Part shown: positions 2,629 through 29,141 of the stretch, one piece after another
Numbering within the stretch: position 1 is the stretch's first letter
Layout: every line of letters starts with the position of its first letter
DNA from: Bacteroidia bacterium
GTDB taxonomy: Bacteria > Bacteroidota > Bacteroidia > SpSt-205
Length of the DNA stretch: 45,476 bases
Direction: 5' to 3'
Assembly (NCBI GenBank): GCA_026413325.1
Contig: JANZYW010000011.1
Span: 1 to 45,476 of the forward strand
Made by a program: the position numbers and the translations under genes
Notes under the pieces: model-generated
What the model was told of the DNA's origin: nothing
Seen by the model: the letters and a program-made list of their open reading frames with translations, nothing else
Database searches by the model: none

Positions 2629-3841
2629 ATCGAAAAGCAGAGAGATCTGGGAAATAAGGTCGGCGGCGTCCCGTCTCATACCGGTAGAGAACCCAACCTA
2701 GCTCTCTCAGAAAGTGGAGACCAGTACTCCAAGCGTATCCCTGTGCAGAAGGGTAGCCCGGTGTGCCCTCCCCGATATAAATCACCGCAGACAGGAAAAA
2801 TTCCACCCCCAAGTCAAAATCTACAATATATGCTACATCCGAGAGATAGCCATATGCCATCCCTACCTTGTTGAAGATCCGTATTCGAGAGGGGATAGGG
2901 GTAGTATCAGCTCCAGCCAGAAAGTATTTCCGAATGCCATCATGATACTCTCGGAGGTTATAGTCGGGGTCTTTGGCCTCAGAAGGATACATCGATAGAT
3001 ACCGCCGCAAGAGATGATAGTCGTTGCTACTGAGCTGGAATCGCTCTCGAGGTCGTACCGCTTGAGGAAAGAGGAGACTGATAAGGAGCGCGTGCGCATC
3101 CTTAAGGCTCAGAGCGTTGCTCTGAGAGGGAAGAAGATAGGGGTGCCCCTCGTACGGATGGGGGGGAAAGTTATCTGTGCAAGTAGGAGGGAGGCGGTAA
3201 GGCTCCTTCCCCTCCCGATGGAATAGCACGCCTTCCACGCATCGATTTTCCTCAGGCGTGCAGCTGCGACCCAGTCGGTGGGCGAAGTAAACCGAAGTGT
3301 ATCCCTTCTGTCGTAGGCTATGTGTTGCATGGGCTGGCCCTACGAAGGCATATAGGTAGTCAAATGTGGGGTTGTCACTATAGACAAGCTGTCGGCGTAT
3401 GCAGTCTGCCATCGAATACATTTGAGTAGGGGGACGAGCTAAACACCCCTTTTTCTCTGGTTGTAAGCTCATGGGCGTTCGGACAGTGATACCGTGTCCC
3501 TTGAGTCGTTCTACTTTCTCTAATGCCAAGGCGATAAGGGGGAGTTTGACCAAGCTTGCGGGGTAGAAATATTCTGTTGTGTCGAGGCGGAAAGCATAAT
3601 GCTTGAGGATCGGGCGGTTCTGCCCATCCCGATTCACTTGGGTATAGATGATTTGGAGGCGATAGGTTTTGGCTGCCCGCAGATAGGGTTGCAGGTTCGG
3701 AGCCCGCTCCCGAAGAAGGCGCTCTAACCATACCGTATCGGGGGAGGAAAGGCTATTTACCTGTGCGCGATAAGGTTGAGGAGGGAGAAAAGCCCCCAGG
3801 CTAAAAATACACCCAGGCCAGACGAACCTTCGGAGAAACAT
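2609..3841 (-). CDS. exported serine hydrolase of the class A beta-lactamase fold
   Basis: The 410-residue protein has an N-terminal signal-like segment (about 1-26) followed by a penicillin-binding/beta-lactamase-like domain. The three active-site signatures can be seen: SLVK with Ser96 and Lys99, SDN at 155-157, and KVG at 325-327 (in place of KTG/KSG). The N-terminal and middle regions are longer than in classic class A enzymes (about 290 residues), so the substrate cannot be called; cell-wall peptide hydrolysis or a carboxypeptidase-like role is as likely as beta-lactam hydrolysis. Its start overlaps the preceding DUF2279 gene by 41 nt, and its end overlaps mutL. Function beyond 'serine hydrolase' is inference. 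Confidence 0.82.
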   Translation of the reverse strand: MFLRRFVWPGCIFSLGAFLPPQPYRAQVNSLSSPDTVWLERLLRERAPNLQPYLRAAKTYRLQIIYTQVNRDGQNRPILKHYAFRLDTTEYFYPASLVKLPLIALALEKVERLKGHGITVRTPMSLQPEKKGCLARPPTQMYSMADCIRRQLVYSDNPTFDYLYAFVGPAHATHSLRQKGYTSVYFAHRLGRSCTPEENRCVEGVLFHREGKEPYRLPPTCTDNFPPHPYEGHPYLLPSQSNALSLKDAHALLISLLFPQAVRPRERFQLSSNDYHLLRRYLSMYPSEAKDPDYNLREYHDGIRKYFLAGADTTPIPSRIRIFNKVGMAYGYLSDVAYIVDFDLGVEFFLSAVIYIGEGTPGYPSAQGYAWSTGLHFLRELGWVLYRYETGRRRPYFPDLSAFRYDYRRP

Positions 3842-4619
3842 ACACCAAAGCGGGGAACGGGGTTTTTATAGCCACAAATATACGCAGAGCCCAGCGCCCC
3901 TTCTGGAAGAAGGTCTCCCAGTGGGGATCCATACTGAGAATCCATCGGCGCTTCTCCCGAGCTCGAATCACCTCTGTCGGTTCTCGACCATAGCCTCCGA
4001 GTAGTCCCTCTGCCCCATGGCCGATAGCGATGCCTATCGGTAACTTCTCATGAAAGCCACATAGCCAGTAGGTCTGTCCATTGTAATCTTTAAGTATCTG
4101 GGCTAAACCCCGTCCCAATAGGTCCGGACGTTGCTGCGCATAAGCAGTGGGCCAGAAGGAAAATCGAAACCCTATGCGCCAGGGACTTTTTCTTATGGCT
4201 TCAGAGAGGCAAAAAAGGGCCGTTCCCGCTGTATTTGCAGCTACATCCCATACAGAGGCTCCCCACTTTGGGAAAAAACCATCCGCAATCTCTATAGAGG
4301 TTTGAAAGCTCCACGCTAAGAGCATACCCCACAAAAAGGCTTCTTGACTCGTGTATCCACTAACAAGAGCCCATTCCCTGTATATCCCGCTCAAGTGATA
4401 GGTCGTCCATACATGCCCCAGCTTGTCCATTTGCTTCCATTCCGCCCCATCATCGAACAATCTCCAGCCTTGTGCGCTTTGCCAGGTATACCAAGAGGCC
4501 ATCGGGGCTCCATACACCAGCCCATAACTGGCACCTACCCCACCCCAGAAAAGAAAAGGACGGCGGCCGCTATCGGGAGATACGATAGCGCCAAGCCATA
4601 TGACGGCCCTAATAATCAA
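3801..4619 (-). CDS. DUF2279 family putative membrane/periplasmic protein
   Basis: The 272-residue protein resembles the DUF2279 family common in Bacteroidota. The family signature is visible in the stretch WKQMDKLGHVWTTYHLSG (about residues 61-78), followed by hydrophobic segments and the conserved SIEIADGFFPKWGASVWD region (about 108-125). The N-terminus (VIWLGAIVSPDSG) is a short hydrophobic stretch, perhaps a signal or first membrane segment. It overlaps cutA by 11 nt upstream and the serine hydrolase by 41 nt downstream, so it is co-transcribed with both. Molecular function is unknown for the family. Confidence 0.78.
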   Translation of the reverse strand: MIIRAVIWLGAIVSPDSGRRPFLFWGGVGASYGLVYGAPMASWYTWQSAQGWRLFDDGAEWKQMDKLGHVWTTYHLSGIYREWALVSGYTSQEAFLWGMLLAWSFQTSIEIADGFFPKWGASVWDVAANTAGTALFCLSEAIRKSPWRIGFRFSFWPTAYAQQRPDLLGRGLAQILKDYNGQTYWLCGFHEKLPIGIAIGHGAEGLLGGYGREPTEVIRAREKRRWILSMDPHWETFFQKGRWALRIFVAIKTPFPALVYVSPKVRLAWVYF

Positions 4620-4941
4620 ATCCCGTTTCTTTAGCTATCCACTGGAGGTATGCGGGTAGCCCTTGCGTAATGGGCAGGTGTACGATAGCAGGTACCTGGT
4701 ACTTGTGGTGCGCTCTGATGAGCTTCTCGAGCTCTTCGTAATAAGAATAAGGGGCCTTAAGCAGCAAAAGAACTTCTGAGGCTTCTTCGATTTTTCCCTC
4801 CCACCAGTATACAGAACGAACCGAGGGGATAATGTTGGCACAAGCAGCCAAACGGCGCTCGACAGCTAAGCGACCGATACGATGAGCCTCCTCCTCATCC
4901 CCACACATGACGTACACTAATCCGAAATCAGGGCTTTCCAT
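4609..4941 (-). CDS. cutA: divalent-cation tolerance protein CutA
   Basis: Small trimeric ferredoxin-fold protein associated with metal tolerance; its precise role is unsettled. With ATG 4941 it has 110 residues, the normal family size. It carries the family hallmarks GLVYVMCGDEEEAHRIGR, ERRLAACANIIP, SVYWWEGKIEE and YQVPAIVHLPITQG. A TTG at 4974 is also in frame but would add 11 residues unlike the family, and a promoter-like TATTTTG lies between the two starts. First gene of the minus-strand operon that runs on to mutL, and divergent from the DUF429 gene. Confidence 0.93.
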   Translation of the reverse strand: MESPDFGLVYVMCGDEEEAHRIGRLAVERRLAACANIIPSVRSVYWWEGKIEEASEVLLLLKAPYSYYEELEKLIRAHHKYQVPAIVHLPITQGLPAYLQWIAKETGFDY

Positions 4942-4997
4942 ATCAGAAGCTGCAAAATACACCAACAGGCGCAATCCATGAAAAACTGCATCTCCAA

Positions 4998-5015
4998 AAT
5001 GTTTGTCTAAACATT
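4998..5015. repeat. perfect 7-bp inverted repeat between divergent genes
   Basis: AATGTTT-GTCT-AAACATT is a perfect hairpin or operator-like palindrome with a 4-nt centre. It ends directly before the GTG start of the DUF429 gene and lies between it and the divergent cutA gene. It could bind a dimeric regulator; no regulator gene is nearby. Confidence 0.5.
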
Positions 5016-5570
5016 GTGTGGGTAGGGATAGATTTGGCTGCTTTTCCTACTCGTCCCTCTGCAGTAGCGGTGGGCTCATCCTGGACAGACCTTCTGGTGC
5101 AGACTCAGTACGGAGACGCTGAGATACAAGCTCTCCTTCACACGGTAGAGAAAGCATGGGTGGATGCGCCCCTGACACAGGGAAACGGTCCATTTCGGGA
5201 TTGTGACCGCCAGCTTCACGGCTTGGGCATATCCCTTCTCCCGATCACATGGAGCTCTATGCAAAAGCTCTACAGGCGAGCGGTAGGCATGAAGAGCACA
5301 CTGCCCCATGTATGCTTCTATGAGACTTTTCCCTGGACTCTATACCGATGGCTTCTGCAGAAGCAAAGCCCCCCACTTCCCAAGCGATTTCGGAAAGAAG
5401 ACGGCATTCTTCTATTAGAAAAATGGGGGAAGGAACAGGGGTTGCGAGCCCAGCCTGCTTCTGTCCACGAATGGGATGCAATAGCGTGTTGGGTGATAGG
5501 GTGGTTGTATGAAAAAGGCGAAGCCCACGCTATAGAGGGGCAAGAAGGATGCCTCTGGATACCCGCCTGA
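5016..5570 (+). CDS. DUF429 family protein (predicted RNase H-like nuclease)
   Basis: The 184-residue protein starts at GTG 5016 with MWVGIDLAAFPTRPS, the typical opening acidic strand of DUF429 proteins. It continues with VEKAWVDAPLTQG (a second acidic motif), FRDCDRQLHGLGI, and near the C-terminus SVHEWDAIACWVIGWL, where Asp completes an RNase H-like acidic triad. The family is predicted, not proven, to be nucleases. The gene stands alone on the plus strand, about 50 nt upstream of smc, which has its own promoter. The start overlaps no other gene and directly follows a palindrome. Confidence 0.8.
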   Translation: MWVGIDLAAFPTRPSAVAVGSSWTDLLVQTQYGDAEIQALLHTVEKAWVDAPLTQGNGPFRDCDRQLHGLGISLLPITWSSMQKLYRRAVGMKSTLPHVCFYETFPWTLYRWLLQKQSPPLPKRFRKEDGILLLEKWGKEQGLRAQPASVHEWDAIACWVIGWLYEKGEAHAIEGQEGCLWIPA

Positions 5571-5608
5571 CGAGAGCGTTGTCCACACTTTTCCCCTATC
5601 GTATCTCC

Positions 5609-5616
5609 TATCTTTG
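5609..5616 (+). promoter_or_regulatory. -7 promoter box of smc
   Basis: TATCTTTG-ACCTT-GTG: a perfect TAnnTTTG box that ends 5 nt before the smc GTG start codon. Confidence 0.72.
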
Positions 5617-5621
5617 ACCTT

Positions 5622-8600
5622 GTGAATTTGCGTTCCATCGAGCTAAGAGGCTTCAAAAGCTTTGCCGAACCCGTCAAGCTCCCGCTCTCTGCCCGACTCA
5701 TCGGAGTGGTGGGCCCCAACGGCTGTGGCAAATCCAATATTGCGGATGCCTTCCGCTGGATAATGGGCGAGCAAAAAGGGCGTCTCCTGCGTATCGAGAA
5801 AGCAGAAAACTTGATTTTCAACGGTACTGCTCACCGGAAAGCACTCCCCTTTGCGGAGGTCACTTTGGAAGTAGAGAACTTTTCCCCTGAACTGCCTCGG
5901 CTGGCGTTTACCCGGCGAGTCCACCGTTCAGGGGAGAGTGAATACTTCTTGAATGGCACACCAGCCCGCATGAAAGATTTCCTCTCTTATTTCTGGCAAG
6001 TAGGGCTTACCTCACAGGGTGTCTTAGATGGCGGCCAAGTAGAAGCACTCATTCACGATAGAGGAGGGGCCCGTCGTGCCCTCATCGAATCTCTTGCGGG
6101 TATCGAGCGCTATCACCACCACAAGAAAGAGATGGTAGGAGAGCTTGAGAAAACTACACTGGCGCTGAATCAAGTAGAAGGTCTATTGAGTCAGCTTCGA
6201 GAACAAGCCGAGCAGTTGGCCGCCCAGGCCGAAAAGGTGGAAATCTATAAAAAGCTCCGGAATGCCTACCAAGAGCTTCTCCTCTCCTGGATCTCTCAGG
6301 AGCTGTCCGCCCTCTCCAAAACCAGGAATCAGCAAGATCAGCAAGTATCAGAGCATGCACATTCTCTCCGAACCCTTGAGGAAGAGATAGGTTCACTTCA
6401 GCTTAGAATAGAATCTCTGGAGGCTGCAGCGGTAGCGGGTCAGCTACAGGAGATGGAGACCACACACGAGCGCATGCATACCCAGTGGCAAGAACTCCTC
6501 CGGGAAGAAAGTACCATTCAAGAGCGCCAACGGCAGCTGGAGCGACAGCTGAAAGATTTAGAGGAGGAAATTCAATATCGAGGCCGGCAGCGAGAGGAAC
6601 TGCATCAGGAGGAAAGCCTCCTTCGGGAGAAGCGCCAGCACCTGGATAAGAGCTACACAGCAGCCCAAGAAGCGCTCTCTTCTCTGATGGCGATTCAGAG
6701 CCAAACGGCTGCACAGCTCCAATCCGCCGAGGAATCGTTCCGTCGCATAGAAGCCCAAAAGGCAGAAGCTTCCGCCCACCTCCAAAAAGTACAATCTCGC
6801 CTTCGGGCTATAGAGGCCAATCTCGCACCCGTAGAAAACCAGCTTGCTTCGTATGCTTCTGAAAAAAGCGATATAGACCATCACCTCGAACAGCTCGCTT
6901 CTGAAAAACAAGAGACAGAGAGAAAGCAAAAGAACGCTTCTATAGGTATTTTAGAGCTGCAGAGTCAGCTTACAGCCTTAGAAGCCCAACGGCGGGCTCT
7001 ATATCGGGAAAAAGAGCGGCAGTTAGCCCTTCTCCAACGGGCAGAGGCCTACTTGAAAGGCATCCAATCTCAGAAAAGTGCCCTACAAGCCTTGCTTGCT
7101 CAGGCGGAGGGGTGGCCCTCTTTCTTCGGAGAACTCCGTAAAAAGTGTGGCGTCGCTTTCTGGCGCACGGAAGACATTTTTTTCACAGAAGGCGCCACCC
7201 TCCCTCTGCTTGGATTTCTTCTCCGATTAGAACCCCCTACCTTATGGGTACATTCCGAAGAAGACGCACAGCAGCTCCATCGTTTCTTGGTGGAGCAGCA
7301 GGAAGGCTTTTTCGCTGTACGTGTCTTCAGTCCCCAGCATACGGCTTCCTCTCCTACAGGGACCTGGATAGACCGATTACAAACATTAGAAGGTTTTGAG
7401 GGACTGGCGCATTTCTTGTGGGGAGATATAGAAATCCGTGAAGAGGAAAAACAAGAAAGCTCACATTCCCCCGTTCGTGTCTTAAGCAAGGATGGACGAG
7501 TCATGTACCTTCCCGATGGTTATATATATCATCTTTCACCCGCTAACACGGCTCATATTGGTCTGCCTCATCGCATTCAACGTCTCTCTCAAGAAGAAAA
7601 GAGCTGGACTCAGCGATGCGCCCTCCTGAGAGACAACCTATCGGCTATAGAAAAAGCCTTGTCCCGCTTGCCTCTTCCTCTTATTCGACAACGCCTCCAT
7701 GCAGCCGAGGCAGATCTTCGGCAGGTTGAAAAACACCTGGCGGGGCTAACAGCGAGAGAAGAGGAGAAACGGCGTCGGAAGGAAAGGCTTGCCCAGGAAA
7801 TAGAGCGATTGGAAGCTCAGCGCCGCACCCTTCAGGAAGAGAAGAACGCCACCTTCCCTTCGCAAGAACACTGGAGAGCAGAGGTCGAGAAAGCGGAAGA
7901 AGAGCTACAAGCAGCTCAGAAAGAGCTGGCCTCTCTCCGACAGAGACACCAGCAGCTTCAGAAGTCTGTCCAGGAGCAGCGTTTCCAGCTCGTCCACATG
8001 GAAAACGAAGCTAAATCCACGGAAAAATCACACAAACTGATCACTCAACAGCTGGAGGAGATCCGAAGACGTATGATTTTCTTGCAGGGAAAGCGAGAGG
8101 ATTTGCTGAAGGAAACGGGGGAGGCTGTTCAGCGGCTGCAGGACCTTCATCAAAAAAAACAGACTTTAGAGCCGCAGATTACAGAGCTGGCTTCCCAAAT
8201 GAAAGCCTTGCGGGAGCGCCAGCGAGAAATCGAATCCCAACTTTCAGAACTTCGCCCTTTATTGGTACAGAAGCAAAAAGAACGAGAAGCGCTCTTGGCA
8301 GCCATTTCCCGTGTAGAGCTTCGTCGATTAGAGGTAGAGCAGCGTGAGGCCCTTCTTCATCAACGGCTTTCAGTAGAGTTACAGCTTTCTCCTGCAGATC
8401 TACCCCCCCCTCCCTCTTCCCGCCTCAAAACCGAAGAGGTCGAAAGTCGTTTGGCCCAAATCAAACAGGAGTTATCAGCTCTGGGTGAGCTAAACTTCGA
8501 AGCGGCGGCTTCTTTAGATAATCTGAGAAAACGAGAGCAACAGCTTCTCATGGAAAAAAGAGACATAGAAGCCTCCCTGTCAGAGCTTCAAGCCCTCCTG

Positions 8601-9104
8601 CATACTTTAGATAGAGAGGCAAAAGAGCGATTTCTCCAGGCATTTGATGCTGTACGAGAACGATTCAAAGTCCTTTTTCAAGGACTTTTTGCCGAAGGAG
8701 ATACCTGTGATTTGCTTCTTATCGACCCAGAGGCCCCGCTCTCCAGTGAGATAGAGATTGTCGCCCGACCAAAAGGCAAAAAACCGCTTTCTCTTCAACA
8801 GCTTTCTGGGGGAGAAAAGGCTTTGACAGCCTTAGCACTTCTTTTTGCTACGTTTGTTATCCGTCCTTCAGCGATCTGTATTTTAGACGAAGTAGACGCT
8901 CCCCTCGATGATGTAAACACACACAAGTTCGGGCAGCTTCTGCGCCGTTTCTCAGAAGAAACGCCCCTTCTCGTGATTACACACAATAAAGTCACGATGT
9001 CGTATTGTGATCAGCTTTTCGGTGTTACGATGCCGGAGCCAGGAGTGAGTGCAGTGTTGGCAGTAGAGATGTCGAGTGCGCAGGAAGTCGTACATGCTGC
9101 ATGA
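5622..9104 (+). CDS. smc: chromosome segregation/condensin protein SMC
   Basis: ATPase of the SMC-ScpAB condensin that compacts and separates chromosomes. The 1160-residue size is typical. The Walker A motif GPNGCGKSN is at 31-39, followed by the Q-loop region, a long coiled coil (about 160-490), a hinge (about 500-650), the returning coil (about 660-1000), then the ABC signature QLSGGEKALTALAL and Walker B AICILDEVDAPLDD near the C-terminus. The hinge is poorly conserved and lacks the usual glycine-rich GVxGxxxDL start, although LWVHSEEDAQQLHRFL fits the hinge fold. GTG start, chosen because it begins the conserved MNLRSIELRGFKSF. No scpA or scpB lies nearby. The stop overlaps the next gene as ATGA. 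Confidence 0.97.
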   Translation: MNLRSIELRGFKSFAEPVKLPLSARLIGVVGPNGCGKSNIADAFRWIMGEQKGRLLRIEKAENLIFNGTAHRKALPFAEVTLEVENFSPELPRLAFTRRVHRSGESEYFLNGTPARMKDFLSYFWQVGLTSQGVLDGGQVEALIHDRGGARRALIESLAGIERYHHHKKEMVGELEKTTLALNQVEGLLSQLREQAEQLAAQAEKVEIYKKLRNAYQELLLSWISQELSALSKTRNQQDQQVSEHAHSLRTLEEEIGSLQLRIESLEAAAVAGQLQEMETTHERMHTQWQELLREESTIQERQRQLERQLKDLEEEIQYRGRQREELHQEESLLREKRQHLDKSYTAAQEALSSLMAIQSQTAAQLQSAEESFRRIEAQKAEASAHLQKVQSRLRAIEANLAPVENQLASYASEKSDIDHHLEQLASEKQETERKQKNASIGILELQSQLTALEAQRRALYREKERQLALLQRAEAYLKGIQSQKSALQALLAQAEGWPSFFGELRKKCGVAFWRTEDIFFTEGATLPLLGFLLRLEPPTLWVHSEEDAQQLHRFLVEQQEGFFAVRVFSPQHTASSPTGTWIDRLQTLEGFEGLAHFLWGDIEIREEEKQESSHSPVRVLSKDGRVMYLPDGYIYHLSPANTAHIGLPHRIQRLSQEEKSWTQRCALLRDNLSAIEKALSRLPLPLIRQRLHAAEADLRQVEKHLAGLTAREEEKRRRKERLAQEIERLEAQRRTLQEEKNATFPSQEHWRAEVEKAEEELQAAQKELASLRQRHQQLQKSVQEQRFQLVHMENEAKSTEKSHKLITQQLEEIRRRMIFLQGKREDLLKETGEAVQRLQDLHQKKQTLEPQITELASQMKALRERQREIESQLSELRPLLVQKQKEREALLAAISRVELRRLEVEQREALLHQRLSVELQLSPADLPPPPSSRLKTEEVESRLAQIKQELSALGELNFEAAASLDNLRKREQQLLMEKRDIEASLSELQALLHTLDREAKERFLQAFDAVRERFKVLFQGLFAEGDTCDLLLIDPEAPLSSEIEIVARPKGKKPLSLQQLSGGEKALTALALLFATFVIRPSAICILDEVDAPLDDVNTHKFGQLLRRFSEETPLLVITHNKVTMSYCDQLFGVTMPEPGVSAVLAVEMSSAQEVVHAA

Positions 9105-9691
9105 AATACCGACTTCACCGAACTCGAAAGGAGTGGATCGTCGTGGGGGAAAGAGTCCATTATGTGGGAGGGAATCTTCGTATCGCATGGGAGGAAGCTT
9201 TCCTTGCCTACGGACTCGAAGGACGACAATGGGGCACTGTCTTACTGGTGGGAATGGGTGCCAGTCTTATGCAGATAATCGCCCAAACGGCAACCCCTCC
9301 CTTGCCTCAGGTCACGGTTCTGGAGATAGATGCAGATATGCTGGCCCTTCAACAAGCCCACTATACTCTTCCTCTGACGTACTTTCCGCACATCGGAGAT
9401 GCTGCCTCTACCCTCCCTACGCTCTCACAGAAGTATGATGGCATTTTCGTCGATGCTTTCCAGGAAGATACTATCCCTGCCTCTCTTCTCTCCTCCTCTT
9501 TTGTAGAGGAACTGCACAGGCATCTCTCCCCGACAGGCTTGCTATTTTGGAATGTACTCTTGTCTGCCGAAGCGAAGGTGGTTGGGGAGCTCCTAAGGAA
9601 GGCATTTACAGCGGTGAGACAGTGGCGCTATCCTCCGCATATCTTCTGGGCGGCTGCCCATGATGAGGTAACCTTTCCCTTACCTTTCTAA
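9101..9691 (+). CDS. spermidine-synthase-like class I SAM methyltransferase fold protein
   Basis: The 196-residue protein is translationally coupled to smc (ATGA overlap). It has the Rossmann motif I LLVGMGAS (about 49-56), an acidic strand end VTVLEIDADM (motif II, about 72-81), HIGDAASTLP and the YDGIFVDAF motif typical of spermidine synthase-like proteins. The N-terminal beta-domain of true spermidine synthases is short here and substrate-binding residues cannot be assigned, so polyamine synthesis should not be assumed. It may be one of the many small SpeE-like methyltransferases of unknown substrate. Confidence 0.75.
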   Translation: MKYRLHRTRKEWIVVGERVHYVGGNLRIAWEEAFLAYGLEGRQWGTVLLVGMGASLMQIIAQTATPPLPQVTVLEIDADMLALQQAHYTLPLTYFPHIGDAASTLPTLSQKYDGIFVDAFQEDTIPASLLSSSFVEELHRHLSPTGLLFWNVLLSAEAKVVGELLRKAFTAVRQWRYPPHIFWAAAHDEVTFPLPF

Positions 9692-23751: not shown

Positions 23752-24952
23752 CCGGCTGTGGCCGGAGATGTTTTTGATGGGCGTCGCCCTCGGTCAGCGA
23801 TGGCGGGGGGTAGGTGTGGTAGGACTTCTGGCATATGGGGCAGGGGTGAGTTGGCAGGTGGGGGAGACATCTTTTCTTCTTTCTCTCTCCTCTCAAAGTG
23901 TACCTTTTGTAGCGCTGATGGTAGGGCTTACGGTACTGGCGTGGTTGTGCATGCCGCTAAGGGGAGGTGCATCGTGGGCGATGATTTTGCAGGTGGCTTC
24001 TTACGGGCTTCTTCTGCGGAGTACTCATCTGGCGTTTAGTTGGGCGCTGCTGGAAGTAGCCGCTTTATCGGGTTATTTTTGGGTATTTACGATAGGTTCT
24101 CGGGAAGGTCGATTAGCTGCGGCGATTCGATACTTTACGTGGAGTGTGATGGGCTCTGCGCTCTTGCTTTTGGGGATCGGGAGCCGTTTAGCGATAGGGA
24201 AGGGGCTACAATATCCTCTGGAAAGTGGGGGAGGTGTTGCAGATGCGCTGTTAGGGTGGGGGTGGGCCATAAAAATGGGATTTATTCCGTTTCATTTTTG
24301 GCTTATAGGGGTATATAGAGTTATTCCTCTTGTATGGGCGGCTTGGTTTTCCGTCGTCCCGAAAGGGGCCCTTCTCTTCAATCTATTGGCTCTTCTTCCT
24401 CCTGAGGGGGGACTACAGTCGGGTATATTTTATTTTTTGGGAGCGGTGTCGTTAGTAGGGGGATATGCGTTGGCTTGGCGGGGTAGCACTTTGGCAGATA
24501 TGTTGTTTTGGGGAACTTTTTCTCAAGTGGCTTACATAACGCTGGTGAGTATACCTGGAGCGCAGCCAGCTGGCCGGATCTTTTGGATAGTGTACGGCGC
24601 TGCGAGCTTCCTTAGTTTTTTATATGTGGAGCGTCCTTGGCGGGGGCGGGTAGGGAATGCAGTGGGGCTTCTGCTACTGGCTAACTTAGCAGGTCTCCCC
24701 CCTGTAGCGGGCTTTTGGGTCAAGTTTCGTCTCTTTTGGGAGGCTTTTCTTCGCATGGAAGGGAATATGCGGATTCTTCTTGTGGGGGCTGCAGGACTTG
24801 CTACGATAGCTGGATTTATGGTGTATGGACATGTCCTATGGCGGCTTTGGCAGGAGCCTTCTTCGGTTTCGGTACAACCTGCTTTTTGGTGGAAATGTCT
24901 TTACTTGGCAGGCGCTCTTGGCCTGTTAGGGGTAGGGTTATGGGGCTTTTAG
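23738..24952 (+). CDS. nuoN: NADH-quinone oxidoreductase subunit N
   Basis: Third antiporter-like subunit of complex I, 404 residues, shorter than the usual 450-490. Recognised from position after nuoM and from SWALLEVAALSGYFWV (Glu), WGWAIKMGFIPFHFWLIGVY (Lys then HFW), SFLSFLYVERPWRG and LLANLAGLPPVAGFWVKFRLF (terminal Lys). About 12-13 membrane segments. It ends the operon and its stop region overlaps the convergent cysteine desulfurase gene by 15 nt. The remaining nuo genes (A-K) are not in the window. Confidence 0.92.
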   Translation: MWGLDRLWPEMFLMGVALGQRWRGVGVVGLLAYGAGVSWQVGETSFLLSLSSQSVPFVALMVGLTVLAWLCMPLRGGASWAMILQVASYGLLLRSTHLAFSWALLEVAALSGYFWVFTIGSREGRLAAAIRYFTWSVMGSALLLLGIGSRLAIGKGLQYPLESGGGVADALLGWGWAIKMGFIPFHFWLIGVYRVIPLVWAAWFSVVPKGALLFNLLALLPPEGGLQSGIFYFLGAVSLVGGYALAWRGSTLADMLFWGTFSQVAYITLVSIPGAQPAGRIFWIVYGAASFLSFLYVERPWRGRVGNAVGLLLLANLAGLPPVAGFWVKFRLFWEAFLRMEGNMRILLVGAAGLATIAGFMVYGHVLWRLWQEPSSVSVQPAFWWKCLYLAGALGLLGVGLWGF

Positions 24953-26101
24953 GGTGGGAGTTAGCTGCTGTATAGCCTGTGAGAGGTGCAGGAGGGCATT
25001 ATCTATATCTGTCTCGGTAGTGGGGAGCCCGAGAGAGAATCGGAGAGTGGCCTGAGCTTCTGCTGGTGTGAGACCCATTGCAAGGAGGACATGTGATGGC
25101 TCTGGACGAGCCGAGCTGCAGGCAGCTCCAGTGGCGGCTGCGAGTAGGGGAGCTCGAGCAAGGATGTCTGAGGCTTTCAAGCCGGGAAAAGTCACGCTTA
25201 GGGTATTTGGGAGGCAGGGGGCGTCTTTCGCATTTAGGCGGGCGAGAGGGTATAGCGACTGGATTCCTTCCCAAAGTTTGGTTTTGAGATAGGTCATCTG
25301 AGAGGAGAAGCTGGACAGTTTTTCATAGACTCGATGAAGAGCTGTGGCCATGCCCACGATTAGGGGTACTGGGAGGGTGCCACTCCGCAAGCCTTTTTCG
25401 TGGCCTCCTCCCAGTAAAAGGGGTTTGAGGGAGACTCGGGGTTGTTTTCTTCGCATGTATAGCGCGCCAACTCCTTTTGGACCGTAAAACTTATGGGCGG
25501 AGAGGACGGCGAGGTCGACGGGGAGCTCATCGAGCGAGAAGGAGAGTTTTCCTGCTGCTTGGGTGGTGTCACACAGGAAAAATACGCCTGCCTGGCGGGT
25601 TAAGGCTCCTAACTCTTGGATAGGTTGGGTCACGCCCGTTTCATTGTTAGCGAGCATGATGGCGACGAGGAGAGTGGTAGGACGGAGAGCGGTTCGGAGG
25701 GTATCGGGTTCTATGATACCGGAGGCGGTTACGGGTAAGATTTCTACTATCCATCCCCGTTTGCTTAGGGCTTGAGCTGGGTCTAAGACAGCTTTGTGCT
25801 CAGTGGCGGCGATGAGAAGGTGGTTTTTACCCGTTCCTTCGTAGGCCTGGGTTAGGCCCTGCAGGGCAAGATTTAGGGCTTCTGTGGCTCCACTGGTAAA
25901 GATCCATTCTTGAGGGGAGGTGTGAAAGAGGGAAGCGATTTGAGCTCGAGCCTTTTCTACGGCGTCGAGGGCTTCCTTTCCCCAGAGGTGGGGACTTGCG
26001 GGATTGCCGAAGTGCTTCTGGAAGTAGGGGAGCATTGATTCTAAGGCTTCTGAGAGTAAGGGGGTAGTGGCATTGTAATCCAAGTAGACAGGGGCTATCA
26101 T
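24938..26101 (-). CDS. cysteine desulfurase, IscS/NifS family
   Basis: PLP enzyme that takes sulfur from cysteine for Fe-S clusters and tRNA thiolation. 387 residues. It opens VYLDYNATTPLLSEALESM and has SGATEALNLAL, the cofactor lysine in SAHKFYGPKGVGALY (Lys204), GTLPVPLIVG and the mobile catalytic cysteine loop GAACSSARPEPSHVLLAMG (Cys328). The sequence fits the IscS/NifS class I group; no iscU or regulator is nearby, so I leave the symbol blank. Last gene of the SiaB/SiaC-like operon, 6 nt after the preceding stop. Confidence 0.94.
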   Translation of the reverse strand: MIAPVYLDYNATTPLLSEALESMLPYFQKHFGNPASPHLWGKEALDAVEKARAQIASLFHTSPQEWIFTSGATEALNLALQGLTQAYEGTGKNHLLIAATEHKAVLDPAQALSKRGWIVEILPVTASGIIEPDTLRTALRPTTLLVAIMLANNETGVTQPIQELGALTRQAGVFFLCDTTQAAGKLSFSLDELPVDLAVLSAHKFYGPKGVGALYMRRKQPRVSLKPLLLGGGHEKGLRSGTLPVPLIVGMATALHRVYEKLSSFSSQMTYLKTKLWEGIQSLYPLARLNAKDAPCLPNTLSVTFPGLKASDILARAPLLAAATGAACSSARPEPSHVLLAMGLTPAEAQATLRFSLGLPTTETDIDNALLHLSQAIQQLTPTLKAP

Positions 26102-26107
26102 AGGGGT

Positions 26108-26656
26108 CTACTTCCGCACTGTACGGGCCAGAAGTGACTCGACCAGTTCCTCGAGGGGCTTAAAAGCCACGGCTACGAGTGCTTTGAGTCCAAAAGAAAA
26201 AAAACTGGCCCACTGGGAGGTCGCATCAGAAGCGGTCTGTTCTATGTAGTATTCAATCAGTTCGGTGACCATGAAGATGACGATCGTGCTGATACCTAAT
26301 ACAGTAACAGCTTTTCTTCTGCGCTGACTTGCCTGTAAAGCGTCTAAGGTATCTTGCAGCTCTTTATTTTTCTGTTGAAGTTCAGCGTTGTACCGAGCGA
26401 TCTCTTCGTTTTTCTCGGCCAGTTCCTGGTTGGCGGCTTTGAGCTTTGCTTGGAGTCGGTCTCCCATCCGAGTGACCAGGCGCGCGGTCTTGAGAAGGTC
26501 TTCATAGCGCTGCTGGATCTCCTCCAGGCGGGCCCGCTCCTCGCTTTGTGGCGGAAGGCTTGTTATCCAATTTCTAAGCTTTTCTGCCCCTTCTTCCTCT
26601 CGTTGAAAGCTAACACTGGGTTCACTGATCGTAGTGATATCACGCCGACTCTTCAT
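26108..26656 (-). CDS. coiled-coil membrane protein next to SiaB/SiaC-like genes
   Basis: No family recognised with certainty. The 182-residue protein has a polar N-terminus (1-35), a helical segment (YEDLLKTARLVTRMGDRLQA, about 51-70) running into a clear coiled coil (about 68-112, with repeated N/E/L-rich heptads such as QELAEKNEEIARYNAELQQK), a basic RRRK stop, and one strong membrane segment (about 117-136). A second hydrophobic stretch (about 148-170) follows and the end is basic. The Y-LL---L-R--D--Q--L--N pattern resembles stalks found before GGDEF or phosphatase domains, but no such domain follows. Overlaps the SiaC-like gene by 17 nt. Confidence 0.6.
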   Translation of the reverse strand: MKSRRDITTISEPSVSFQREEEGAEKLRNWITSLPPQSEERARLEEIQQRYEDLLKTARLVTRMGDRLQAKLKAANQELAEKNEEIARYNAELQQKNKELQDTLDALQASQRRRKAVTVLGISTIVIFMVTELIEYYIEQTASDATSQWASFFSFGLKALVAVAFKPLEELVESLLARTVRK

Positions 26657-27056
26657 TTATGGGTACAAGCTCGAAAGGAACTTTGACAGCGGCTTGGTAA
26701 TCCAGACCCGCATCTTCCATTTCTGTATCCTCTTCTAAAAATATCCAGCGGATATGGACAGGCTGTCCTTTTTCATGCAACGATTCGAAATATCGAAAAA
26801 GGTCCAGTAGTACTTTGGCTGTGCTCGTATTGAAATATTCCAGACGAACCTCCAGGATGAAAGGGTCGGGTTGAGGAATATGTCGTTGAGCTAAATTTTC
26901 AAGCCATTGCAAAATGGGACCATAAAACTTTAGAGAATTTTCTGGGTAGGAGTTTCCTCCTATAAAAAACTTTCGATTTCCAGGGTCAAATATGATCTCC
27001 GGTGTGGTGAAGGTTGGCTCTATAACTAATTTTTCGGAAGTAGTCAGGTCACTCAT
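26640..27056 (-). CDS. SiaC-like protein (DUF1987 family)
   Basis: The 138-residue protein matches the SiaC/DUF1987 pattern: TTPEIIFDPGNRKFFIGGNS (18-36), the highly typical NSYPENSLKFYGPILQWLE (35-53) and LEYFNTSTAKVLLDLFRYFE (72-91). In Pseudomonas SiaC is a small protein whose phosphorylation by the SiaB kinase, and dephosphorylation by SiaA, switches binding to the diguanylate cyclase SiaD. The NTST segment (76-79) lies where the family's phosphosite is expected. Here it overlaps the SiaB-like gene by 8 nt and the coiled-coil membrane gene by 17 nt, so all three are co-translated. Its downstream partner is unknown. Confidence 0.82.
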   Translation of the reverse strand: MSDLTTSEKLVIEPTFTTPEIIFDPGNRKFFIGGNSYPENSLKFYGPILQWLENLAQRHIPQPDPFILEVRLEYFNTSTAKVLLDLFRYFESLHEKGQPVHIRWIFLEEDTEMEDAGLDYQAAVKVPFELVPINEESA

Positions 27057-27561
27057 GGCTTTTGAGAAAGAAAATAGCTTTTACCGTGAACCAGCTGTGT
27101 TCTCCCTCTGCAGGGGTAAGCTCGTAATCAAACTTATCTGCCTTGAAAAGGACTTGTAAGAGCCCTAAGTTCGCTCCTCCACTGTCGGAGTAAGACCCAC
27201 TCGTCAGAGTATTATGATGGAGATTCTCCAGTTCTGCTCTACTCATTTGAGTAAGATTTTGGAGATAAGATTGCAAAAATATCTCTTGGCTATAATAGAC
27301 GAGATTCTTTGCGGTTAGTACGATCCCTTCATCTGAGCGACTTAGGCTTAATAGGGGAGGCTGGTTTTCGCTATGTACAGCATAATGGATGATGTTCTGA
27401 GCAAGTTCTATCAGACTTGAGATGATTTTTCTGCGCAAAGGGGTGCGTATTCCTTCTTCTACTAAAAGTTTGTCTAAACTTCGTACTATATGTGGGAGCA
27501 CCTCCATGTCGAGAGGTCCTTCGTGGCGAAACAGTAACCTATGTTCATAGGACACAGCCAT
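27049..27561 (-). CDS. SiaB-like HATPase-fold protein kinase
   Basis: The 170-residue protein shows a compact GHKL-type kinase pattern like SiaB: the N-box helix SSLIELAQNIIHYAV (48-62, Glu52 and Asn55) and a glycine-rich ATP-lid motif SDSGGANLGLLQV (125-137). In Pseudomonas SiaB phosphorylates SiaC. The next gene is SiaC-like and overlaps this stop, which supports a kinase-substrate pair. First gene of a four-gene operon; promoter box 10 nt upstream of the ATG. Confidence 0.78.
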   Translation of the reverse strand: MAVSYEHRLLFRHEGPLDMEVLPHIVRSLDKLLVEEGIRTPLRRKIISSLIELAQNIIHYAVHSENQPPLLSLSRSDEGIVLTAKNLVYYSQEIFLQSYLQNLTQMSRAELENLHHNTLTSGSYSDSGGANLGLLQVLFKADKFDYELTPAEGEHSWFTVKAIFFLKSHE

Positions 27562-27591: not shown

Positions 27592-29124
27592 TCATGGAGA
27601 GATAGCGAGTCCGTACCCCGCCAGCGCGATTTCTCGCACTGCTCTGAGTTGGAGAGTGGGAAGTTGTAAGATATAAACTTTGCCCGGGGCACCAGGTAGC
27701 CCTCCTACGTAATGATGCGGAGGATCCCCTCCAGCTGTATTTTCATAAGAAACAAATAGCTGATTTTGAAGGGGGTCGACACCGATGCCTCGGGGGAGGT
27801 GTCCCAGGTTGAAAACGTGGGTGAGAACTCGCAAGGTTTGGACGTCAATGAGTGCAATCGCTCCCAGCTTATTCCCTTGCAGAGAGGGTGCAGAAGCTTT
27901 CAGACAGGCTACGTATAAAAGACCTTCATGGTAAGCCATCAGCTTGGGAGCTGCAGCGGTGGGTAGGACGGCTACTAAACTGTCATTTCCTTGAGAAAAC
28001 ACCCGGACTTCATTGGCCACATCACAGCTGACGAAATAGTATCTGCCAGAAGGTTCCGCCAGTATCTGATAAGGTCCCCAGCGGTTGTCTGTCTGTGGCA
28101 AGGCATTCGGGGTGAGGGGGATCTGGGTAAAATCAATGAACCGGCTCCTGTCCGGGGCGATTTCTACTTTTGTAATGTAATTTCCACTATTGGCGGTTAC
28201 ATATGCGTATCGAAAATCAGGCGTGACCCACAATCCATGGGGACGAGCGATGATTTGCCCTGTAGGGTCTCGCAGCTCGTCAATCACCCGCATCTCTTCT
28301 GTGTCGATAAGGGAGAGTTTGACAGGGGCGGTAGTAGTAAAGTGCGTAACTACCGCATATCGTCCATCGCTACTCAGCTCTATATGGGCTGGATCCGGTG
28401 CGATGGATACTCGTCCTACTTTTTCGTAGGTATCGGTGCGATATTTTTCTACAGCAGCTCCGGCTATGAGGGTGACATATAAATACCTTCCATCGGGAGA
28501 GAGCTGGATGTAGTGAGGACTCTCTACCGCTCCTGGATTGATCCCTACTGGGATGTAGTGCATGAGATAATACCTATCCGCATCTAGGACGGCGATGAGA
28601 TCGCTTCCCGCAGCACATATGAAAGATTTCCTTCGGGTAGAGAGGGTCCTATGGGCCCAAGGCATTTCTCCTTTCGCATTGCGAGCTCCTTCCTGGATCC
28701 ACTGCCGCAGGAGGGAGATTTCCTCTGCAGTGAGGAGGTTGCTTCTATCTGGAAGGGGAGGGGGCATGAGGGGCTCCGCACTGGGTCCTAAGGTAGAGTC
28801 CCAGTTCACTTGCCAGAGGAGATGAGACCAATCTGGATTTCCAGGTACGACTGGGGCCACCTCCCCGCTGTAGCCGTAGAAGAGACTATCCCATCGACTC
28901 AGGTTCAATCTGGTAGAGGGAAGAACCCCTCCCGAAGGGTTCGTTCCATGTTCATGCGGGGGAGAAGCAGAAGAAGTGTTTGAGCTGTGGCATCCTGCGC
29001 AGCGTCGAAGGAGTATCTTAGCCACAGGTGCGGGATAGCCGCTGGGATCACTGAGAGAGGGCGGGTCGGCGGGGTCTCGACACCCTATCAAACACAGCCA
29101 TATCCCAATCCATAAGGTACGCAT
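27592..29124 (-). CDS. lipoprotein with cytochrome c motif and YVTN-type beta-propeller
   Basis: The 510-residue protein starts at ATG 29124; a TTG at 29136 overlaps the promoter box and is unlikely. A lipoprotein signal with lipobox LIGC (Cys15) precedes a short domain with one heme-binding motif CAGCH (42-46), LLRRCAGCHSSN being typical of the Planctomycete-type cytochrome c domain. That domain closes with LTAEEISLLRQWIQEGAR at about 140. The rest (about 170-510) forms a seven-bladed propeller with repeats such as SPDGRYLYVTLIAGAAVEKY and SSDGRYAVVTHFTTTAPVKL. Likely faces the periplasm or cell surface. Electron partner and ligand are unknown. Confidence 0.83.
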   Translation of the reverse strand: MRTLWIGIWLCLIGCRDPADPPSLSDPSGYPAPVAKILLRRCAGCHSSNTSSASPPHEHGTNPSGGVLPSTRLNLSRWDSLFYGYSGEVAPVVPGNPDWSHLLWQVNWDSTLGPSAEPLMPPPLPDRSNLLTAEEISLLRQWIQEGARNAKGEMPWAHRTLSTRRKSFICAAGSDLIAVLDADRYYLMHYIPVGINPGAVESPHYIQLSPDGRYLYVTLIAGAAVEKYRTDTYEKVGRVSIAPDPAHIELSSDGRYAVVTHFTTTAPVKLSLIDTEEMRVIDELRDPTGQIIARPHGLWVTPDFRYAYVTANSGNYITKVEIAPDRSRFIDFTQIPLTPNALPQTDNRWGPYQILAEPSGRYYFVSCDVANEVRVFSQGNDSLVAVLPTAAAPKLMAYHEGLLYVACLKASAPSLQGNKLGAIALIDVQTLRVLTHVFNLGHLPRGIGVDPLQNQLFVSYENTAGGDPPHHYVGGLPGAPGKVYILQLPTLQLRAVREIALAGYGLAISP

Positions 29125-29133
29125 TGTATCTAT

Positions 29134-29141
29134 CAAATATA
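29134..29141 (-). promoter_or_regulatory. -7 promoter box of the cytochrome/propeller gene
   Basis: Minus strand TATATTTG, perfect consensus, 9 nt before ATG 29124; it covers the alternative TTG start at 29136 and so rules it out. Confidence 0.65.

Follow-up and report, generated by a model that had tools for sequence, protein, structure and literature searches.

SiaABCD of Pseudomonas aeruginosa, the closest described system, comprises the phosphatase SiaA, the kinase SiaB, the phosphoprotein SiaC and the diguanylate cyclase SiaD (PMC8457831). The phospho-acceptor of Pseudomonas SiaC is T68 (PMC7647112, PMC8457831), and in the crystal structure of the SiaC-SiaD complex SiaC holds the cyclase via V78, R80, I81, S82, D83, R84, Y85 and Q86, among others, with Ser82 of SiaD bonding the SiaC threonine (PMC8457831). 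Those who solved the structure proposed that proteins with a SiaC domain modulate their neighbours (PMC8457831), which anticipates the principle discussed below. In the literature searched no report was found of SiaBC with other outputs, of a shared docking-stalk domain or of a membrane hairpin in this context. The logic of the system resembles that of the STAS-based switches (RsbU/RsbW/RsbV and HsbR/HsbA/HsbD), in which a small STAS-like protein changes partner according to a phosphorylation state governed by a kinase and a phosphatase; SiaC, however, forms a separate family (PF09345), and the putative target at the locus described here is a coiled-coil membrane protein rather than a sigma/anti-sigma factor or a cyclase.

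The window, i.e. the whole stretch of 45,476 nucleotides that was analysed, corresponds to contig C22 in a Bacteroidia genome of 2.19 Mb with 99% completeness. Its minus strand carries, in this order, a gene for a SiaB-family GHKL protein kinase of 170 aa (27049-27561), one for a SiaC-family regulatory phosphoprotein of 138 aa (26640-27056) and one for a coiled-coil membrane protein of 182 aa (26108-26656), which is the positional equivalent of SiaD and the putative SiaC target. The genes overlap by 8 and 17 bases, and the single-operon trio described in a previous, sequence-only reading of the window is thus found in place. A cysteine desulfurase gene (24938-26101) begins on the same strand 6 bases past the trio, so that the operon may hold four genes or belong to a longer transcript. 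The desulfurase and, on the other side, a beta-propeller-like protein with a heme motif (CxxCH; 27592-29136) flank the trio in all 11 relatives of the genus and family. Among the open reading frames at 20-34 kb of the window, no phosphatase or GGDEF gene adjoining the trio was identified.

The trio thus shares with SiaABCD a SiaB and a SiaC that bear the catalytic and acceptor motifs, a target gene placed downstream, and a predicted SiaC-binding motif in the stalk of the target. It departs from SiaABCD in that its operon has no SiaA, a two-helix membrane domain stands in place of GGDEF in the target, and the stalk bears one copy of the motif, as opposed to two in SiaD. Lacking both SiaA and a GGDEF target, the trio is not a SiaABCD module; rather, the probable target of this SiaB/SiaC partner switch, which is based on threonine phosphorylation, is a docking-stalk protein embedded in the membrane and not a diguanylate cyclase.

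As judged from its sequence, the SiaC-like protein is a member of the SiaC family (PF09345; 2.6e-34, 117.9 bits against a cut-off of 24.5) with the predicted phospho-threonine motif intact. A phmmer search matches it to chain 6kko_C (2e-15), and in Foldseek its AlphaFold2 (AF2) model (pLDDT 93.8) finds among PDB entries significant matches that are all Pseudomonas SiaC chains (6KKO, E 1.7e-12), the predicted fold agreeing also with 6K4F and 7E6G. Alignments to 6kko and within the family (A5) place N76-T77-S78 on N67-T68-S69 of the Pseudomonas protein, which makes Thr77 (motif EYFNTST; 26826..26828, minus strand) the equivalent of Thr68. The SiaB-like protein is likewise a SiaB-family member at the Pfam level (PF19788; 2.1e-20, 73.2 bits, cut-off 26.6), and its kinase motifs are intact. 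It falls just under the cut-off of the NCBIfam SiaB subfamily (NF038262; 83.5 bits against 85) and scores 40 against 225 with the NCBIfam SiaB equivalog, so that it does not fit the model of the Pseudomonas ortholog. A profile of 13 SiaB relatives (A8) finds in the PDB a sole match, 6kko_A, the SiaB of the SiaB-SiaC complex, at 8e-33. The N-box E52-x-x-Q55-N56 (27394..27408, minus strand) aligns with EMTQN of Pseudomonas SiaB, E52 being invariant and Q55 and N56 present at 90% or more in the alignment of the 13 proteins; in the G-box SGGANLG (residues 127-133; 27163..27183, minus strand), L132 and G133 are nearly invariant in A8.

The connection between the third protein and this pair rests on its stalk, in which residues 51-76 (YEDLLKTARLVTRMGDRLQAKLKAAN; 26429..26506, minus strand) form a predicted SiaC-docking motif that maps to Y68-N93 of SiaD. 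Sixteen docking stalks, attached to membrane tails or to enzyme domains and with no Pseudomonas sequence among them, were made into a profile (A4) and searched against 177,635 PDB sequences; the top match is SiaD itself (7e6g_A of entry 7E6G, E 2.5e-4; the next match has E 0.05), which is matched in two domains, precisely the pair of SiaC-binding motifs that has been published (PMC8457831). At the level of residues, V61, R63, D66, R67 and Q69 of the window protein are identical to V78, R80, D83, R84 and Q86 of SiaD, M64 and K73 resemble I81 and R90, and Gly65 takes the place of S82. This amounts to 5 of the 13 SiaD contact residues, a count also attained, in one register or another, by 2.9% of shuffled stalks. 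Since the single-sequence match is modest, a separate profile was trained on enzyme-fused stalks, and the significance of the relation rests on the profiles. The enzyme-only profile (12 stalks fused to enzymes) was run over SiaD, all open reading frames of the window, three further loci from this genome and 1000 shuffled versions of the window stalk. It matched just four sequences, namely SiaD (2e-6), the stalk of the window (8e-10) and two stalks from contig C53 of the same genome (8e-16 and 9e-8); no shuffle was matched. A phmmer search of the PDB with the coil alone gave nothing useful, and a 43-column profile of the motif (A3) was too short to find SiaD. A further likeness is the short helix that precedes the stalk, SiaD also having short N-terminal helices (PMC8457831). 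The profile evidence indicates that the third protein and SiaD have homologous stalks, the homology covering the very residues of SiaD that SiaC grips, and the third protein is therefore best read as a SiaC target, with a predicted contact at this motif.

Conservation of the gene order extends well beyond the window. Every one of the 11 relatives from the genus and family has the trio intact, which by itself is weak evidence of a functional link because the flanking genes are conserved too. However, the order SiaB-SiaC-stalk-hairpin is found in nine GTDB families, i.e. in eight more (f28, f38, f41, f49, f76, f109, f111 and f119), where the trio lies mostly in different gene neighbourhoods; the association of the third gene with SiaBC noticed in the window is thereby borne out across Bacteroidota. 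Of a further 394 genomes of the phylum, 21 have SiaC; the window-type profile gives matches that span the docking motif in 16 genomes (17 with one doubtful), 15 of those having SiaC. Coil matches in proteins of 800-1400 aa, which start from about profile position 65 and leave the docking motif uncovered, were discarded in this search. For the co-occurrence of stalk and SiaC, Fisher's test gives p of about 1e-20 with phylogeny ignored, and the effective sample is smaller than the number of genomes since the stalk-positive ones fall in a handful of families. It might be argued that the coiled-coil protein is a chance neighbour of SiaBC and that its stalk resembles that of SiaD only in generic coiled-coil composition; indeed, coiled coils do yield weak spurious matches, and the likeness of the single sequence to SiaD is modest. 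Against this stand the linkage in nine families, the co-occurrence with SiaC, the failure of all 1000 shuffles (0/1000) to match and the ranking of SiaD as the top PDB match at its exact binding motifs, so that such an explanation is already largely refuted and hardly credible.

If the stalk is a docking handle for SiaC, what follows it need not be a cyclase, and the wider sample shows a variety of solutions. Within the phylum sample, a docking-stalk gene lies within a few genes downstream at 21 of the 32 SiaC loci, and the output it carries is a histidine kinase in seven cases, GGDEF in four (one with a broken frame), the stalk only in four, a class III cyclase in three, SpoIIE in two and the hairpin in one; a SpoIIE-type protein lies upstream at many of these SiaC loci. 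The window operon is like these docking-stalk operons of other Bacteroidota in having SiaB-SiaC followed by a protein that starts with the same docking stalk, and differs in ending in a membrane hairpin, whereas they have an enzyme or no output domain and, in most cases, a SpoIIE phosphatase lying upstream. The stand-alone stalks, of 77-99 aa, follow SiaC (L176:4227-4484, L177:3503-3802, L191:3706-3963 and L197:3628-3861), and in L176, L191 and L197 they are followed by a protein of about 980-1230 aa (AAA+ in L176, the one scanned), an arrangement that makes the stalk look like an adaptor subunit in its own right. At L190:4162-6039, a single protein combines a receiver with the phosphatase (SpoIIE) and the kinase (SiaB) of the switch; SiaC and a stalk-hairpin protein lie downstream. 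On a tree of 38 SiaC proteins the distribution of output types requires 6 changes, the minimum for 7 types, as compared with 21 for shuffles; output type thus tracks the SiaC tree, SiaC and its output being inherited as cognate units. The SiaC proteins with membrane outputs cluster in the tree with a support of 89/77, which is not firm. Adjacency is not universal, since in another Bacteroidota sample most SiaBC pairs are without an adjoining docking-stalk gene. Such pairs often adjoin a large TerB-ABC transporter protein of about 1020 aa, which is a candidate further target (L187:4342-7413; likewise at L183, L186 and many of the loci L091-L162). Natural SiaB-SiaC fusions are also found (L098:158-1201 and L121:5090-5962), each followed by a second, separate SiaC.

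The third protein of the window has no family match above cut-off in Pfam or NCBIfam, and its whole model has no significant Foldseek match in the PDB; Pfam and NCBIfam scores for augmin, SMC and the like are below cut-off and were set aside as coiled-coil noise. The AF2 model has a short helix (residues 18-33), a continuous helix (39-145) and a third helix of low confidence (147-181). The stalk helix (residues 39-112; 26321..26542, minus strand), for which pLDDT mostly exceeds 90 as far as about residue 110, runs unbroken into the first membrane helix, which the hydropathy maximum, with its peak at 116-134, places at about residues 116-136 (26249..26311, minus strand). The second membrane helix, at about residues 150-168 (26153..26209, minus strand), ends in a KP motif and is weakly hydrophobic, with a lower hydropathy peak and low modelling confidence. 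With a long helix, hydropathy peaks and no enzyme domain family, the description of the protein as a stalk-like coil joined to membrane helices, made from the sequence alone, is upheld. Conservation in two alignments (A1 and A7) delimits the two-helix membrane domain, TM2, to residues 108-176 (26129..26335, minus strand), with E132, K158, K166-P167 and E169 conserved and a motif KP[ILM]E. In A1, which consists of 18 hairpin proteins gathered by sequence as relatives of the third protein and then aligned, the invariant residues are R67, L68 and Q69 in the docking motif and E132, K158, K166 and P167 in the hairpin, with N97 and L107 between.

The two-helix domain corresponds to no Pfam family. 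With a threshold of E <=1e-3, it is matched in 40 of the 375 genomes searched in the class, the weakest of these matches being doubtful. It also forms the C-terminus of TPR-coil proteins (L165, L166, L221 and L224-L228) and of a receiver protein (L041); it is therefore modular, and its distribution suggests an uncharacterised module used by several signalling inputs. The position of the hairpin in these proteins bears on the possibility that the membrane protein is a sensor rather than a target, a signal from the membrane or periplasm passing via the hairpin to the stalk and deciding whether SiaC is held or set free for action elsewhere. The topology predicted from the AF2 model and hydropathy would permit such inside-out signalling, and another input would be useful to an operon that has no phosphatase sensor, but the loop joining the membrane helices is short and leaves scant room for a sensor domain, output enzymes occupy the same slot in relatives, and the REC-hairpin and TPR-hairpin proteins place the hairpin at the output end. 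Thus, a sensor seems improbable, and the hairpin is better taken as the output of the SiaC switch.

The rest of the genome provides both a candidate for the missing phosphatase and a comparison for the stalk. The absence of SiaA claimed in the sequence-only reading is correct for the locus and does not hold for the genome, where 20 SpoIIE matches (19 above the family cut-off) include one that heads a second Sia operon; a phosphatase encoded elsewhere, of the PP2C type that had been envisaged, is thus available. The lack of a GGDEF cyclase holds for both, since genome-wide no GGDEF or class III cyclase domain (PF00211) was detected, the control genomes being positive. Together with stalk homology to SiaD and linkage, the absence of a detectable cyclase of either kind supports the idea, put forward in the sequence-only reading, of the same switch with a different output. 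The second operon, on contig C53 (L017, G000:C53:12000-24000; 3793-9447), encodes a PAS/GAF-SpoIIE phosphatase followed by SiaB, SiaC, SiaB and SiaC, and then by two stalk proteins that each have one membrane helix. The first of its SiaB proteins (6121-6693) has lost QN of the N-box and looks like a pseudokinase, and one of its stalks (4312-4776) has a degenerate docking motif. The window-type SiaC and a pair of C53-type SiaC genes are kept in 11 of 11 genomes of the genus, and metagenome-assembled genomes with closely related Sia operons are from uncultured Bacteroidia, e.g. SKYB7 and SKYG57. Two orphan SiaC-like proteins (L018:3921-4499 and L019:4442-4813) have no adjacent SiaB and carry Ser in place of the phospho-threonine (NSS).

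In total, the genome encodes five SiaC-like proteins, three SiaB-like proteins and three detected docking-stalk proteins, and the excess of SiaC over stalks is one reason to consider that the hairpin might be a mere anchor, i.e. it might keep SiaC (and SiaB) at the membrane, as a tether or sink, and control how much SiaC is free to act on another, unlinked target. The third protein is indeed small and without an enzyme domain, and the two single-helix proteins of C53 join the docking stalk to an unrelated membrane tail, as if any anchor would do. On the other hand, conservation of the hairpin exceeds what hydrophobicity would demand (E132, K158, KP, E169), and its reuse on TPR and receiver proteins suggests a specific role. 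An anchoring function is thus a serious but rather unlikely alternative to the preferred reading, in which the membrane protein is the regulated target.

At the level of sequence, a switch acting on this target is supported by the kinase and acceptor motifs, the stalk homology, the conserved linkage, the interchangeable outputs and the absence of the usual output. By analogy with the Pseudomonas complex, unphosphorylated SiaC would bind the third protein as it does SiaD, gripping the conserved motif Y..LL....VTRMGDRLQ of the cytoplasmic stalk, and would stabilise a parallel stalk dimer. As the stalk forms one helix with the first membrane helix, SiaC binding would likely alter the pairing of the hairpin, and may thus set its pairing or oligomeric state and, with it, a membrane output. 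Phosphorylation of SiaC on Thr77 by SiaB would, again as in Pseudomonas, release SiaC, and a SpoIIE phosphatase encoded elsewhere would reset it, the best candidate being the PAS/GAF-SpoIIE protein of the C53 operon. The contact between SiaC and the stalk, the direction of regulation, the identity of the phosphatase and the function of the hairpin as an output, as opposed to an anchor or sensor, are the parts of this scheme that we infer.

SiaC-type proteins are widespread, and their sole established target in the literature searched is one Pseudomonas cyclase. The docking stalk would provide a sequence rule by which SiaC targets can be predicted among cyclases, phosphatases, histidine kinases and membrane hairpins, and it makes the control exerted by SiaBC outside c-di-GMP signalling a testable question. 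There is an even chance that the SiaC switch is a general plug-in, in which a portable stalk serves many outputs, the one found here being a modular two-helix membrane effector, not described before and common to TPR and receiver proteins, that alters a membrane process and employs no second messenger. If the proposed reading is true, the SiaC switch would have an interchangeable output, which in this bacterium would be a small membrane protein carrying the same docking handle.
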